64,000 nucleotides of DNA from NCBI GenBank assembly GCA_015229115.1, contig JADGCH010000003.1, positions 1-64,000 on the forward strand, read 5' to 3'. Under the pieces are notes generated by a model, which saw only the letters and a list, made by a program, of their open reading frames with translations, had not been told where the DNA came from and searched no databases. This DNA is from Magnetococcales bacterium (GTDB lineage Bacteria > Pseudomonadota > Magnetococcia > Magnetococcales > JADGCH01). A program made the translations under genes and the position numbers. Shown piece by piece: positions 25,665-64,000 of this stretch (position 1 is its first letter; each line of letters opens with the position of its first letter).

Positions 25665-26636
25665 ATGGCCACCGCCGTCGCCGTTATCGATACCGCCCTC
25701 ACCGACTATCAATCCCTGGTCGCCAGCCTGCCGCCCGAGCTGGAGATCATCCTGCTCGACCCGCATCAGGATGGCCTCAGCCAGCTGGCCTCCGCCCTCA
25801 CCGGTCGTAGCGGTATCGATGCCATCCACCTCTTCAGCCATGGTGCGCCCGGATCGTTGCAACTGGGCTCCACCACCCTGACTACAGCCAATCTGGCCCG
25901 CTACGCCACCGCGCTCTCCACCATCGGCTCATCCCTGACACCTGATGGCGATCTGCTGCTCTATGGCTGCAACGTCGCTGCCGGTGATACCGGCCTTGCC
26001 TTCATCAACGCTCTAGCCCAATCCACCAGTGCCGATGTGGCCGCCTCAGATGACCTGACCGGCCAGGGCGGAGATTGGTTGCTGGAGCAGCACAGAGGCA
26101 CGGTCACCGCTGCTACCTTTACCCCCAGGTATAGCGGTGCTTTGGCGACCGCGTCGTTTGCTGATAAAGTCAACTATGCTGTTGATGTTGGACCTATTTA
26201 CGCTGCCATTGCTGACGTCAATCATGACAGTTGGCCCGATATTTTGGTGGTTAACTATAACTCCAATGTTGTTTCGGTAATGCGCAACAACGGTAATGGT
26301 ACTTTTGCTGCCAAAGTTGACTACGCTATTGGTGGTCCTAATCCCCATCATATTGTCGCAGCCGATATTAATGATGATGGGTGGTCCGATATTTTGACAA
26401 CCAACCAGGGTGGTAGCACTATCCAGATACTTTATAATAATGGCGATGGCACTTTTGCTTCCAATGTTAGTTATACCGTTGAGCGTTGTTCGTCGTTTCG
26501 GCCAACCTTTAACCCGGGGCGAGTGCCCCGGGCTGATCCTGAATCGCCCCGAAGGGGCAGCCTTAACCACAGCTTGGGGCATCGCCCCAAGAAAGAAGAA
26601 AATCGATTAAAGCAAGGGTTGCCGTTTCTAAGTTGA
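25665..26636 (+). pseudogene. DUF4347 / FG-GAP (VCBS-like) repeat protein, probable 3'-truncated remnant
   Basis: DUF4347-like IHLFSHGAPGSLQLG...LLLYGCNVAAGDTG; FG-GAP units IADVNHDSWPDILVVNYNSNVVSVMRNNGNGTF and AADINDDGWSDILTTNQGGSTIQILYNNGDGTF; the frame then runs into repeat copy B. Confidence 0.75.
26500..26591. repeat. Hairpin-rich intergenic repeat, copy B (three consecutive stem-loops)
   Basis: CCCGGGGC-gagt-GCCCCGGG (26513-26532), GCCCC-gaa-GGGGC (26546-26558), CTTGGGGC-atc-GCCCCAAG (26573-26591). Confidence 0.88.
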
Positions 26637-48377: not shown

Positions 48378-49757
48378 AAAACTTTTCTGCTGCACAGCAT
48401 GGTTGAGGTACCAGTCAAAGACCATGCAGATGTTGCGGATCAGTAACCGGCCAGCTGGCATAACCTGCCAGCTGTTGCCGCTGTCCACCACCAATCCTTC
48501 GTCGACCATGGTCTGTAACGCCTGCTGTTCCGTCTGGAAATAATGGTTGAAATCAAGGTTGAACTGCTCAGAGATGGCAGCACGATCGAGCCTGAAATCA
48601 CACATTAAGCGCGTAATCACCTCACGGCGAATCACATCATCCTGACTCAGTTGCAACCCACGAAAAGTAGCCGGCAAACCAGCATCAATTCGATCATAAT
48701 ATTCGGGTAATGTCTTCAGATTCTGGGCATAACAACGGCCCACCTGGCTGATGGCCGTGGTCCCCAGAGCCAGCAAGTCGCATTCTCCATGGGTGGTATA
48801 GCCCTGAAAGTTGCGGTGCAACTGACCCTGACGCTGTGCCGTGGCCAATTCATCGTCTGGTTTGGCAAAATGATCCATACCGACGTAGCAGTAACCCGAT
48901 TCAGTCAGAACGCGGATGGTTGTTTCAAGAATGCGCAGTTTTTCCTCGGGTGACGGCAGATCCTCCTGGTTGATGCGCCGCTGCGGTGGAAAATATTGTG
49001 GCAAATGAGCATAGTTGAAGATCGCCAAGCGATCGGGATCGAGATGATGGATAACTTCCTGCAGGGTACGATGGAAAGTCTGTTCGGTCTGAAACGGCAA
49101 ACCGTAAATCAGGTCAAGATTGATGGATTGAAAGCCCTGCTTTCTAGCTTCGTCAACCACCTTCTTGGTCAAAGCCATGGGCTGAATGCGATTGACCGCC
49201 TGCTGTACCCGTTCATCGACATCCTGCACACCAATCGAAATGCGGTTAAAACCGAGGGAGGCCAACACGGCGATGGATTCCAGCGGCATTTCTCGTGGGT
49301 CGACCTCAATACCCCATTCCATTAAATCGGACGGTTGGAAATTAAAATGATCACGCAGGCCATGGATCAGTCTTGTTAGCTGTTGTGCATCAAGATAGGT
49401 CGGTGTTCCCCCTCCCAGGTGCAGTTGGGTCACCGCCCTGCTGCTACTGCACAACGAGCCGATCAGCCTGATTTCACGCAACAGCGATTCAAGATAGCGT
49501 TCGGCACGGGAGCGGTCGGTGGTGACGATGCGGTTACAGGCACAGTAATAACAAACTGTATCGCAAAACGGGATGTGCAGATAAAGCGACAGAGGCTTAT
49601 CGGGATGTTCCTGTTCTGACTGCCGAATCTGTTGCCGAAACAGATCGGCGGTGAACGATTCATGAAAATGGGGTGCGGTTGGATAGGAGGTATATCTTGG
49701 ACCAGACTGGTTGTATTTGTTGATCAGCTCCCGGTTAAACAATACGGTCTGGTTCAT
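48363..49757 (-). CDS. hemN: Oxygen-independent coproporphyrinogen III oxidase
   Basis: PRYTSYPTAPHFHESF; radical SAM HIPFCDTVCYYCAC; LHLGGGTPTYL. Confidence 0.96.
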   Translation of the reverse strand: MNQTVLFNRELINKYNQSGPRYTSYPTAPHFHESFTADLFRQQIRQSEQEHPDKPLSLYLHIPFCDTVCYYCACNRIVTTDRSRAERYLESLLREIRLIGSLCSSSRAVTQLHLGGGTPTYLDAQQLTRLIHGLRDHFNFQPSDLMEWGIEVDPREMPLESIAVLASLGFNRISIGVQDVDERVQQAVNRIQPMALTKKVVDEARKQGFQSINLDLIYGLPFQTEQTFHRTLQEVIHHLDPDRLAIFNYAHLPQYFPPQRRINQEDLPSPEEKLRILETTIRVLTESGYCYVGMDHFAKPDDELATAQRQGQLHRNFQGYTTHGECDLLALGTTAISQVGRCYAQNLKTLPEYYDRIDAGLPATFRGLQLSQDDVIRREVITRLMCDFRLDRAAISEQFNLDFNHYFQTEQQALQTMVDEGLVVDSGNSWQVMPAGRLLIRNICMVFDWYLNHAVQQKSFSRTI

Positions 49758-50824
49758 GAGGCCCTGCTTTCTTCCCGAACGACCTTAACCAATGTGGCCA
49801 CCTGTTCAGGCTCAACGTCAGGCGTAATGCCATGACCAAGGTTGAAGATATGGCCAGGATGGGGGCCAAAACGATGAAGAATTTTTTTTGTCTCAGCACG
49901 AATAACCGCCTGTGGAGCATACAGAACAGCTGGATCCATATTACCCTGCAAGGCCACCCGACCTTTGACCTGACGTCTCGCCTTGCCCAGGTCGACTCCC
50001 CAGTCAAGACCGATCACATCACAGTCGCTCTCCATTAATGGCTTCAGACGATGACCACACCCTTTAGAAAAAACGATAACGGGTATGGCCAAGCCGTTGC
50101 GATCAACACGATGCAACCCTGCAATGATTGTGCTAATAAAATTCAGTGAATAAGTCTGAAAAAGCTCAAAAGGCAAAACGCTACCCCAAGTATCGAAGAT
50201 CTGTATCGCTTGAACACCATGACGAATCTGGGCATTCAGATAATCGGTCACAACCGTGGTCAGCTGTTCCAGCAGCAGCAACAAATCCGATGGGTTGTTG
50301 TACATCATTTTTCGGATGGTACCGAAATCCTTGCTGGAACCACCCTCCACCATGTAGGTAGCCAGCGTCCATGGGCTGCCGGAAAAACCAATTAGCGGAA
50401 TCTGATCCTGAAGCAGTGAGCGAATACGCTCAATAGCCTCCATGACATAATCAAGATCGTTGTCCGGGTTAACGGTTGCTTTAAGATGTTCAATATCTTT
50501 TCGACAACGAATGGGGGGATCGAGCATAGGCCCTTCGCCATCGCTGAAGGAAAGCTTTATACCCATTGCTTCTGGCACCACCAGAATATCGGAAAAGAGG
50601 ATGGCCGCATCGAAACCAAACCTCCTGATAGGTTGTAAGGTTACCTCAGCAGCCAATGATGGCGTTTTACACAGGGTGAGAAAATTACCGGCTTGGCTGC
50701 GTACTTGGCGATATTCGGGTAAATAGCGCCCAGCCTGACGCATGATCCAGATTGGAGTCTGGTCAACAGGTCTGGAAAAACAGGCCTGTACAAAGCGGTG
50801 TTGGGGAAAAAGCCTGTTTTTCAC
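49754..50824 (-). CDS. hemE: Uroporphyrinogen decarboxylase (GTG start)
   Basis: DQTPIWIMRQAGRYLPEYRQVR; FGFDAAILFSDILVVPEAMG; GFSGSPWTLATYMVEGG; NLGHGI. Confidence 0.97.
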   Translation of the reverse strand: MKNRLFPQHRFVQACFSRPVDQTPIWIMRQAGRYLPEYRQVRSQAGNFLTLCKTPSLAAEVTLQPIRRFGFDAAILFSDILVVPEAMGIKLSFSDGEGPMLDPPIRCRKDIEHLKATVNPDNDLDYVMEAIERIRSLLQDQIPLIGFSGSPWTLATYMVEGGSSKDFGTIRKMMYNNPSDLLLLLEQLTTVVTDYLNAQIRHGVQAIQIFDTWGSVLPFELFQTYSLNFISTIIAGLHRVDRNGLAIPVIVFSKGCGHRLKPLMESDCDVIGLDWGVDLGKARRQVKGRVALQGNMDPAVLYAPQAVIRAETKKILHRFGPHPGHIFNLGHGITPDVEPEQVATLVKVVREESRAS

Positions 50825-51284
50825 ACAATTCCTTTCTTCAGTTTTTTAGGAATGTATTGGTAATGAAATAAGAATAATGCCTTGTGAATTTGTGAATGAA
50901 GCTAATAGCGTATTGAAAATTAAAATATTTTTATCGTCCGACCAGCTTGACAGCAACATGGATAGCCTGTTGATCAATGATGAAATACCGCACTTGATCA
51001 GCTTGTCGATCAGACGAATAGAACCAATCTCTGTTGATCGATGTGGAATTCATGGCCGTATTACACAACCCCCTGTGAATGAGCAATACCCGCTGGAAAT
51101 GGGTTTCAGACAGCTCCTTCTACTTCATCATGAAAATTTGTATAAACCCTAAAATAAGAATAAAGTCCTGTGAGTTTGTGAGTAAACTGGATAACCTCAT
51201 GAACAGGATCAATTTATATCAGAAACAAGACAAGCTATCCTGTGGGTTTGTGGTTCTGTTGCAACGATTTTTCAAGCTATGCCA
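50825..51284. other. Candidate hemE-proximal replication origin / repeat-bearing regulatory region
   Basis: ~460 bp without a supported gene; paired TGTG repeats at 50883, 51169 and 51241, 35-bp imperfect direct repeat (50866-50900; 51152-51186), AT-rich tract 50911-50934, clustered GATC sites. Position between hemE and an uncharacterised gene, with aroE nearby, resembles alphaproteobacterial origin regions. Origin function is inferred. Confidence 0.45.
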
Positions 51285-52469
51285 TCAACCAATGTCCGTT
51301 TCTGTGGAATTTGTCTGGACTATTCCACCATGGGCTGTGGGTGAAACGGCCGGTTCTTCCGGGTTACGATGATAAGCGACCGGAAAGGCAATGGACGATA
51401 GTTCGTCTTGGTGAATGGGCACAATCGCTTCCTGTAACAGCTTCACCCATTTTTCCCGAATGTTATAGCTCGTCTTCAGCGTCCCATCCGGTGATGGAAG
51501 AGCTGCCTTGGTATGTCCGTAACGCAGCCGCAGGATTACTACCGCACCATGGTTGTGTTGATGAACCAGAAAATGACGACGGATATCCAGGGCGGTACTT
51601 TTACCCCAACTCTTCAGGGCGGCTAATTCATCGGGGTTGAGCTGCAATAGTACATATTGCTCAATGGCTATATTTTGATCCTGACCGTTTGAAGAAAGCA
51701 GCGTCAAGCGCCGGTCCTGTTGTGAAGCCAGGAACACCGTGCCAGTCAGTTTATCCCGCGCCAACAACTGGGCTACCAAGGCAGCTGCAGAACGTCTACC
51801 GGCGGCGTTATGGTAAAAATTGAAATACTCAAAAAATTTGTGTTCAAAAAAATCAATGAACTCATCGCCATGCTCGTATAAGCTGCGCTGAAAATAATTC
51901 AGGTAAACACCCAGACTGCGTAAGGCGCTGTCGGTTAATCGTTCAATCTTGACATGAAAATGACTTAACTGAAAATCTTTCTGGTTGTTATGTTCGTCAA
52001 TAGGCTGTTGAATTAATAATGAAAAATCAAGAGGCAGCAATAATTTCAGCAGATTGCCAAAATTTTCATGGTGCATGTAACGGCTATTGGTTTCATAATG
52101 TTCCAGCCCGGGCAGGTCGGGCGCTATGGTAGAAAGATTTTTTTTGGTGACGCGATTGTTTTCACGGCAGCGGCAATGCTTGCGCAGTTTCGGCGGTAAG
52201 TGACCATCAACCATGACGACCAGAGCGCTGTTGTGCAGCGCATGTTCCTTGGTTTCACCGATGGATCCCGGCCTTAACGACGCAGCAGAAACGAATGGAT
52301 AGGGAACCCGTTCAGCCCTGAATTTATGATAAGAATCAATCAGCGTGTAATGAATCAATAGACGAGTTAATTTTTGTTTTTCGACCGCATAGACCGAACT
52401 TTTTATCTTTGCCTGCTCCTCTGGTAACAAGGTAAAATCTTTGGTGGACATGGTCGAAACGCTCTTCAT
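51285..52469 (-). CDS. Uncharacterised protein, 394 aa
   Basis: Long uninterrupted ORF not shadowing another gene; no confidently recognised family. Contains HCRCRENN and a possible GAF-like C-terminal half, not established. Confidence 0.75.
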   Translation of the reverse strand: MKSVSTMSTKDFTLLPEEQAKIKSSVYAVEKQKLTRLLIHYTLIDSYHKFRAERVPYPFVSAASLRPGSIGETKEHALHNSALVVMVDGHLPPKLRKHCRCRENNRVTKKNLSTIAPDLPGLEHYETNSRYMHHENFGNLLKLLLPLDFSLLIQQPIDEHNNQKDFQLSHFHVKIERLTDSALRSLGVYLNYFQRSLYEHGDEFIDFFEHKFFEYFNFYHNAAGRRSAAALVAQLLARDKLTGTVFLASQQDRRLTLLSSNGQDQNIAIEQYVLLQLNPDELAALKSWGKSTALDIRRHFLVHQHNHGAVVILRLRYGHTKAALPSPDGTLKTSYNIREKWVKLLQEAIVPIHQDELSSIAFPVAYHRNPEEPAVSPTAHGGIVQTNSTETDIG

Positions 52470-52526: not shown

Positions 52527-53285
52527 ATGGCATCTCTGACGGAGATTGAAACGGTACTGAATCGTGAACTTGACCGGGATTCCTTTACCGACTATGCGCC
52601 TAACGGTGTTCAGGTGCGTGGTCGGGAGCAGGTACAACGGATTGTCACAGGCGTTTCGGCCTGTGTGGCCCTTTTTGAGGCAGCCGTTGATCAAAAGGCC
52701 GACCTGATTCTGGTTCATCATGGCCTGTTCTGGGACAAGGAGTCACGTGTTGTGGCCGGTAGCATGAAACGTCGGTTACAGATCCTGCTGCAGCAGGACA
52801 TCACATTGATGGCCTATCATTTGCCGCTGGATGCTCATCCTCAATATGGCAACAATATCCAGATCATCAAAAAACTGGCCCTGACACCGGTCGCCCCGTT
52901 CGGTTTCTACCGTGGACGTCCACTCTCCTTTATGGCAACAACCGCAGGGCAGCAGGAGTTTTCTGGTTTCGTCGAACGGCTTCAACAGCTTTTTGGTACC
53001 AGCATCACCCTGTTCCCTTTTGGCCCCTCCACCATTCAGCGCATTGCAGTCTGTAGTGGCGGTGCGCCAGAACTGGCCTCAGAGGCGGTTGCCCAACGGG
53101 CTGACCTGTTTCTGACCGGAGAAGTTTCCGAACCGCTGTTTCACTATGCCCAAGAGGAGGGATTGAATGTCATCGGTGCCGGACATCATCAAACAGAACG
53201 ATGGGGTGTCCAGGCCGTTGGGGCTTTTATAGCTGAACGGTTTGGTGTGACGCACCAGTTTATTGACATCAAGAATCCGGTTTGA
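52527..53285 (+). CDS. Nif3/YbgI-like dinuclear metal centre protein
   Basis: DYAPNGVQVRG; DLILVHHGLFW; AYHLPLDAHPQYGNN; ITLFPFG; GHHQTERWGVQAV. Confidence 0.92.
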   Translation: MASLTEIETVLNRELDRDSFTDYAPNGVQVRGREQVQRIVTGVSACVALFEAAVDQKADLILVHHGLFWDKESRVVAGSMKRRLQILLQQDITLMAYHLPLDAHPQYGNNIQIIKKLALTPVAPFGFYRGRPLSFMATTAGQQEFSGFVERLQQLFGTSITLFPFGPSTIQRIAVCSGGAPELASEAVAQRADLFLTGEVSEPLFHYAQEEGLNVIGAGHHQTERWGVQAVGAFIAERFGVTHQFIDIKNPV

Positions 53286-54151
53286 TGCGGATGAACATCA
53301 ACGGTTCAACACGACTGCTGGCTGTCCTGGGCGATCCTGTTGCCCATTCTTTATCACCGGCTATGCACAATTTTGCCCTGTCACAGCTGGGGTTGAACTA
53401 CTGCTATCTGCCGTTTCCTGTTCAGGCAGCGCAGCTGCGGCAGGCTGTTGATGGTTTAGTGGCCCAGAAAGCGCGCGGATTCAACGCTACCATTCCACAT
53501 AAAGAAGCCCTTTTCCATCTGGTTGATCGGCTTGATGAAGGGGCACGCGCCATCGGTGCCGTCAATACGGTTGTCATAGACGACGAGGGCACCACGACCG
53601 GTTATAACAGCGATAGCTACGGGTTTGTCACAGCGCTGGAACAGCGTTTTCCTGGTACTGTAGCAGGTTGTTCTGCCGTCATCATCGGGGCTGGTGGTGC
53701 TACCAAGGCCGTAGTGATGGCCTTGTTGATGGGAGGGGCAGCGCAGATCACCATCGCCAACCGGACCTTGAGCCGATCAGAAGCCCTGCTGCAGCAACTG
53801 TCGCAGACAACAGCCGGCAGGGCGGCTACGCTCTGTCAGGTGGTAGCCCTTGCACCGGAACAGCTGCCCCTGGAACGATGCACCTTATTGATCAACAGCT
53901 CCAGCGTCGGCATGCGTGGCGAACCCATCACAGCAGTCGATGTTAACCGGCTACCTGACCAGGCTGTGGTCTATGATCTCATCTATCGTCCGGCTGTTAC
54001 GCCCCTGCTGGCCCAGGCCTCAGCTCGTGGCCTGCGTACTTTCAATGGCCTCGGCATGCTGATTCATCAGGGCGCGCGCGCTTTTCAGCTGTGGACCGGC
54101 GCCGAGATGCCTGTTGCCGCCGTAACCGATTATCTGATCCGCCATCAGTAG
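53282..54151 (+). CDS. aroE: Shikimate dehydrogenase
   Basis: LAVLGDPVAHSLSPAMHNFAL; FNATIPHKEA; AVNTVV; VIIGAGGATKAV; NGLGMLIHQGARAFQLWTG. Confidence 0.96.
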   Translation: MMRMNINGSTRLLAVLGDPVAHSLSPAMHNFALSQLGLNYCYLPFPVQAAQLRQAVDGLVAQKARGFNATIPHKEALFHLVDRLDEGARAIGAVNTVVIDDEGTTTGYNSDSYGFVTALEQRFPGTVAGCSAVIIGAGGATKAVVMALLMGGAAQITIANRTLSRSEALLQQLSQTTAGRAATLCQVVALAPEQLPLERCTLLINSSSVGMRGEPITAVDVNRLPDQAVVYDLIYRPAVTPLLAQASARGLRTFNGLGMLIHQGARAFQLWTGAEMPVAAVTDYLIRHQ

Positions 54152-63869: not shown

Positions 63870-64000
63870 ATGGAAACGATGTGGCAGAAAACGCTGGAGC
63901 TGATGCAGGAACAGGTATCGCGCCAGGTCTTTGATGTCTGGATCAAGCCGCTGCAGCCGGTCGGACAGGTCGAAAATAATGTCCTCGAACTTCTGGTTGA
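63870..64000 (+). CDS. dnaA: Chromosomal replication initiator DnaA, partial (runs off the right edge)
   Basis: METMWQKTLELMQEQVSRQVFDVWIKPLQPVGQVENNVLELLV resembles DnaA domain I; divergent from rpmH-rnpA-yidD-yidC. Absent from the ORF track (truncated). Confidence 0.88.
   Translation, partial: METMWQKTLELMQEQVSRQVFDVWIKPLQPVGQVENNVLELLV

Follow-up and report, generated by a model that had tools for sequence, protein, structure and literature searches.

The chromosomal origins of Caulobacter and Rickettsia represent the Cori type, in which the origin is linked to hemE (PMC1914354). A second point of reference is the basal unwinding system (BUS), a bacterial system that combines tandem DnaA boxes, a spacer and DnaA-trios (PMC6669920, PMC8287927) and that is recognized by tandem boxes, mismatched at no more than two and four positions, by a spacer and by three or more NAN triplets (PMC8287927). 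The DNA considered here, called the window throughout, is a stretch of 64,000 nucleotides from a Magnetococcales bacterium (C118:1-64000, on a contig that extends 40 kb further), for which an initial annotation had proposed a hemE-type origin in the gap upstream of hemE. Like the Cori-type origins, this gap lies directly upstream of hemE, is intergenic and AT-rich with a length of about 400-460 bp and holds DnaA-box-like repeats, and its A+T content (63%, against 44% for the whole contig) is above average, as is characteristic of the Cori type. The Cori type reportedly also has aroE in its neighbourhood, and here, as had been annotated, about 2.5 kb lie between hemE and the start of aroE (53282). 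The window site differs in its boxes, which are non-canonical, in the duplication of the trio-bearing module, and in its other flank, which is COG1806 in the Cori type (COG1253 in the Anaplasmataceae) and a gene for a 394-aa orphan protein with no Pfam match in the window. CtrA sites (TTAA-N7-TTAA) were found neither in the interval nor in the two origin-like arrays of the closed genome G011. Because of the different second flank and the lack of CtrA sites, the site is filed as a candidate hemE-linked origin and not as a strict Cori.

The coordinates of the locus are collected in Table 1. The interval adjoins hemE immediately, as annotated, and appears as a 460-bp gap in a rough map of open reading frames, which has comparable gaps at 36.0-36.6 and 40.7-41.2 kb. 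No Rfam family matched within 50825-51284, and a search of the same genome for a second copy of the whole interval found none. The named relatives of the encoded HemE come from Magnetococcales genomes. The gene dnaA, which the initial annotation had overlooked, begins 130 bp before the end of the window, in a canonical context with yidC, rnpA and rpmH before it and dnaN, recF and gyrB behind; it is only 13 kb from hemE, which raises the question of which of the two genes marks the origin. The 394-aa orphan protein belongs to no family in Pfam or NCBIfam and has no solved relative, and 29 of its 30 matches in the 299 genomes of the phylum searched lie within Magnetococcales. AlphaFold modelled it with low confidence (pLDDT 64), and a fold search with this model gave nothing significant, the weak and non-significant similarity being to diadenylate cyclases (CdaA, CdaM). 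In almost all genomes that have an origin array, the gene is a neighbour of hemE.

Table 1. Features of the hemE-linked candidate origin and its surroundings (window positions unless stated otherwise).
Feature	Position	Strand	Remarks
hemE (uroporphyrinogen decarboxylase)	49754..50824	-	Pfam PF01208, E 1.8e-129; origin flank
Candidate oriC	50825..51284	.	gene-free, 63% A+T; flanked by hemE and the 394-aa orphan gene
Putative module 1	50866..50899	+	AAATAAGAATAA (4 trio-like NAN triplets), spacer, pair TGTGAATTTGTGAATGA; boxes 8 bp apart
AT-rich tract	50911..50934	+	23/24 A/T; candidate extra melting region
Lone DnaA-box-like site TGTGAATGA	51074..51082	+	frequency on its own not above chance
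Putative module 2	51152..51185	+	AAATAAGAATAAAGTCC + TGTGAGTTTGTGAGTAA (5 trio-like triplets); direct repeat of module 1
Third pair TGTGGGTTTGTGGTTCT	51241..51257	+	adjoins 3' end of the 394-aa gene; relatives have a terminal TGTGGATAA there
394-aa orphan protein gene	51285..52469	-	conserved second flank
DUF34/NIF3 gene	52527..53285	+	conserved neighbour; same order in G011
aroE	53282..54151	+	conserved neighbour
dnaA, 5' end	63870..64000	+	PF00308 match C118:64215-64697; ORF runs to contig position 65225

The three pairs of 9-mers on which the origin proposal had been built are all present, starting at 50883, 51169 and 51241, and the lone site and the AT-rich tract were likewise confirmed. 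The paired repeats are real and far beyond chance. Three copies of TGTGRRTTTGTGR occur in the 64-kb window, all of them in the interval and within 371 bp (0.02 expected from dinucleotide shuffles), and the 3.15-Mb, 184-contig assembly holds four copies, three of them in the interval; similarly, three of the four occurrences of TGTGN4TGTG on both strands of the 64 kb fall here. On the 104-kb contig, sites that differ from TTATNCACA at no more than one position are densest in the 500-bp stretch 50701-51300. Four sites of the interval lie within one mismatch of TGTGNATAA, yet none of its 9-mers is within one mismatch of TGTGGATAA. Two of the three pairs are held by a 52-nt direct repeat of 73% identity (50866-50917 and 51152-51203), each copy of which includes the A-rich stretch AAATAAGAATAA, a short spacer and then the pair. 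The interval also contains an 18-nt repeat, CTGTTGATCAATGATGAA / CTGTTGATCGATGTGGAA, at 50967-50984 and 51031-51048, and five GATC sites, or 10.9 per kb as against 7.2 in the window.

By mechanism, as far as the letters can tell, the site fits the basal unwinding system, a match that the initial annotation had also overlooked, since each of the two putative modules has a co-directed box pair, a 4-bp spacer and 4-5 NAN triplets on the expected side. The pair at 50883 carries 3 and 2 mismatches and is accompanied by four triplets, that at 51169 carries 4 and 2 and is accompanied by five, and the spacer is 4 in both. Differences from the BUS are the 2-4 mismatches of the boxes, the triplets, which read AAA/TAA/GAA instead of mostly TAG (3'-GAT-5'), and the presence of two module copies, in direct repeat and 286 bp apart. 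The third pair, at 51241, carries more mismatches than the published limits allow, and the AT-rich tract lies on the opposite side of pair 1 from the trio-like stretch. Module 1 is the top site of the 104-kb contig for an 8-bp pair with at least four trios, and 8-bp pairs with at least three trio-like triplets occur at three places of this contig, two of which are in the interval. Among 3000 dinucleotide shuffles of the interval, none gave two modules with at least four triplets and 0.7% gave one, figures which are somewhat optimistic because the 8-bp box spacing was chosen after the sequence had been seen, and on the model of the B. subtilis origin. The box 6/7 pair of that origin, with the same 8-bp spacing, reads CCTGTGGATTTGTGGATAA.

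Comparison across Magnetococcales, with boxes counted as sites within one mismatch of TGTGGATAA and at most 720 nt from hemE, revealed at least two (two to six) such sites in all 11 relatives that keep hemE adjacent to the 394-aa gene. Where this adjacency is absent, 13 of the 14 genomes have no boxes near hemE, G018 being the only exception. Because canonical boxes are found in every adjacency-keeping relative, the gap is, on the reading of these sequences, a conserved DnaA-box site in Magnetococcales; the window genome is the sole genome that keeps the adjacency without a canonical box in the gap. The boxes recur in an R/R/L/L/R layout in G011 (R188, R251, L320, L354, R369) and G023 (R192, R255, L324, L358, R373), those of L049 lie at 258, 322, L391, L424 and R439, and the layout reaches up to about 440 bp from hemE. 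Several relatives also have an 8-bp-spaced box pair, e.g., TGTGGAAAAGTGGATAA in G026 and TGTGGATATGTGATTAA in G004, and the hemE-side module of G011 shows the same 8-bp spacing, four triplets and a 4-bp spacer. The search for the array in related genomes, which had been suggested as a check of the proposal, thus upheld the box-carrying position (11/11) but not the letters of the window's repeats. The only genome of the same genus, G001 (69% complete), has neither hemE nor the interval.

The closed genome G011 (4,719,581 bp), presumably Magnetococcus marinus MC-1, has two inverted origin-like arrays (L158:3536-3800 and L158:6690-6951; 69-nt inverted repeat, 74%), which flank the aroE-NIF3-394aa trio and have the skew switch between them. 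Its arrays resemble the window site in their flanking genes, module geometry and AT-richness; they differ in that their boxes are canonical (TGTGGATAA) and point both ways, whereas the variant pairs of the window are co-directed, and in that G011 has another, inverted copy next to aroE at a distance of 3 kb, for which the window has no counterpart at its aroE. Two box clusters are also present in G023 (L228, about 6.65 and 9.8 kb). In family f6, a small extra DnaA-box cluster is located between dnaQ and a Rieske/petA-like gene (L227:12051-12232 in G021; L230 near 8072 in G029).

The odd boxes of the window can be accounted for in three ways: either its DnaA accepts another box, or low-affinity boxes suffice, or the origin is decaying. 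The helix-turn-helix of the DnaA encoded by the window genome is ordinary apart from Lys and Gln at two conserved positions, the Lys standing at the equivalent of E. coli R399 and the Gln replacing the first Gly of GGRDHTT. The DnaA of G018 shares that Lys, yet G018 has canonical boxes, which weakens altered DnaA specificity as the cause of the divergence. That the lineage has evolved a box dialect of its own (TGTGRRTNA, read as TGTGRRTTTGTGR pairs) alongside an altered DnaA, with two or three complete modules in direct repeat inside a single origin, is a tentative suggestion, possible though doubtful.

Decay would make the interval a relic, that is, an ancestral hemE-linked oriC whose boxes decayed here after initiation had moved elsewhere. 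In its favour, all syntenic relatives keep a consensus from which the window boxes have diverged. Families f8 and f13 (G008, G017, G013 and others) lack both DnaA boxes upstream of hemE and a skew minimum at that place; their origin seems to be located elsewhere than hemE, so that origin moves seem to happen in the order. Random decay, however, should not yield three pairs that share one variant, two of them with a full module, and the skew of the window contig still switches sign in the neighbourhood, which makes a relic unlikely.

GC skew had been named as a further check, and it bore out the proposal in relatives, where it switches at the site or next to it (G026 and G011), while on the window's own contig it only brackets a broad region. 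On the 134-kb hemE contig of G026 (G026:C11), which has no dnaA, the minimum of the raw cumulative skew, 51675, is 0.24 kb from the array at 51912-52279, the densest box cluster of that contig. The raw minimum of G011 is at 25761 and its orientation-corrected switch at 23.4-25.4 kb, between the two arrays (near 23.6 and 26.9 kb); when the skew was sampled along the chromosome, the reverse switch came out near 2.3 Mb, as would be expected of a terminus. The skew of G021 is compatible with hemE but broad, and that of G018 is uninformative because the contig ends near hemE and is rearranged.

The window contig itself shows a strong sign change of the skew (permutation P below 1/300). About 9 kb are inserted at its recF (L015:6385-16745; C118 66.4-76.7 kb), the order being a recF 5' fragment, a 342-aa gene, a 2548-aa gene and then full recF; the former gene product was named transposase-like (Rpn/PD-(D/E)XK) and the latter FG-GAP/VCBS-repeat with a caspase-like stretch, both by reading the sequence. 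When the insertion is kept, hemE is disfavoured, and a switch at 72 kb obtained from orientation-corrected GC3 skew proved to be driven by the inserted 2548-aa gene. Its removal widened the support to 48.5-82 kb, with the best position at 65 kb, and this range supersedes a switch at 69 kb from a simple two-mean change point. Within this set hemE is included and not favoured, and the skew of the contig cannot separate hemE from dnaA, with a mild preference for dnaA. Many bacteria have their origin next to dnaA, and such an origin here (roughly 63.6-66 kb on C118) would agree with the best insertion-free position and with the canonical rpmH-rnpA-yidC / dnaA-dnaN-gyrB context. It is nevertheless improbable, given that no site within one mismatch of TGTGNATAA occurs around this dnaA (60.3-67.6 kb), that none of 28 Magnetococcales dnaA loci has a box cluster, and that the orientation-corrected skew of G011 rejects dnaA as the switch.

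Five DnaA boxes, three of them exact, lie in 67 bp between convergent genes on another contig of the assembly (C24, L156; G000:C24:2238-2304). The assembly has no other cluster of exact canonical boxes, and the origin could be sought there; such a placement is very improbable, as the cluster has no AT-rich tract or trio-like module alongside, the same-genus genome lacks it at the same gene, it is not conserved next to this gene across the order, and the skew change is seen on C118 instead. A DnaA-titration site, a possible and the simplest reading of the C24 cluster, fits it equally well. That the pairs are operators for a transcription factor at the hemE promoter, with no origin involved, suits an interval that is the hemE upstream region but is scarcely credible where relatives have canonical DnaA boxes in the same gap, in a recurrent layout extending up to about 440 bp from hemE, and skew that switches at the site; regulation of hemE by DnaA in addition may occur and would be compatible with an origin.

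The initial reading of the locus as a hemE-type oriC is supported by the boxes of the 11 relatives and by the skew of G026 and G011. With the site and its repeats, the geometry of the modules, the conservation of the position and the skew of these two relatives established, the interval is quite probably the hemE-linked chromosomal oriC of this Magnetococcales bacterium, equipped with divergent boxes, and DnaA binding to these boxes, unwinding and the start of replication are predicted for the source species. DnaA would bind the paired 9-mers, which are 8 bp apart and in the same direction, and an ATP-DnaA oligomer would grow from the pair over the short spacer onto the trio-like strand AAATAAGAATAA, on the hemE side of each pair. 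The duplex would melt at the A-rich trio-like stretch, and the DnaB helicase would then be loaded on both strands.

No description of an origin for Magnetococcales was found in the literature searched, though a prediction for the closed genome may exist in origin databases. With the present locus, the range of hemE-linked origins grows from Caulobacter, Rickettsia and Wolbachia relatives, for which they have been described, to Magnetococcales. This order is a deep branch next to Alphaproteobacteria, and the locus thus suggests that the hemE location of the origin predates the split of Magnetococcales from Alphaproteobacteria. The open and novel point is the variant box dialect combined with a duplicated module. 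The order offers natural variation, from canonical single arrays and inverted double arrays (G011, G023) to the divergent duplicated modules of the window and the apparent absence of the site in families f8 and f13, and with such variation origin turnover becomes directly testable.
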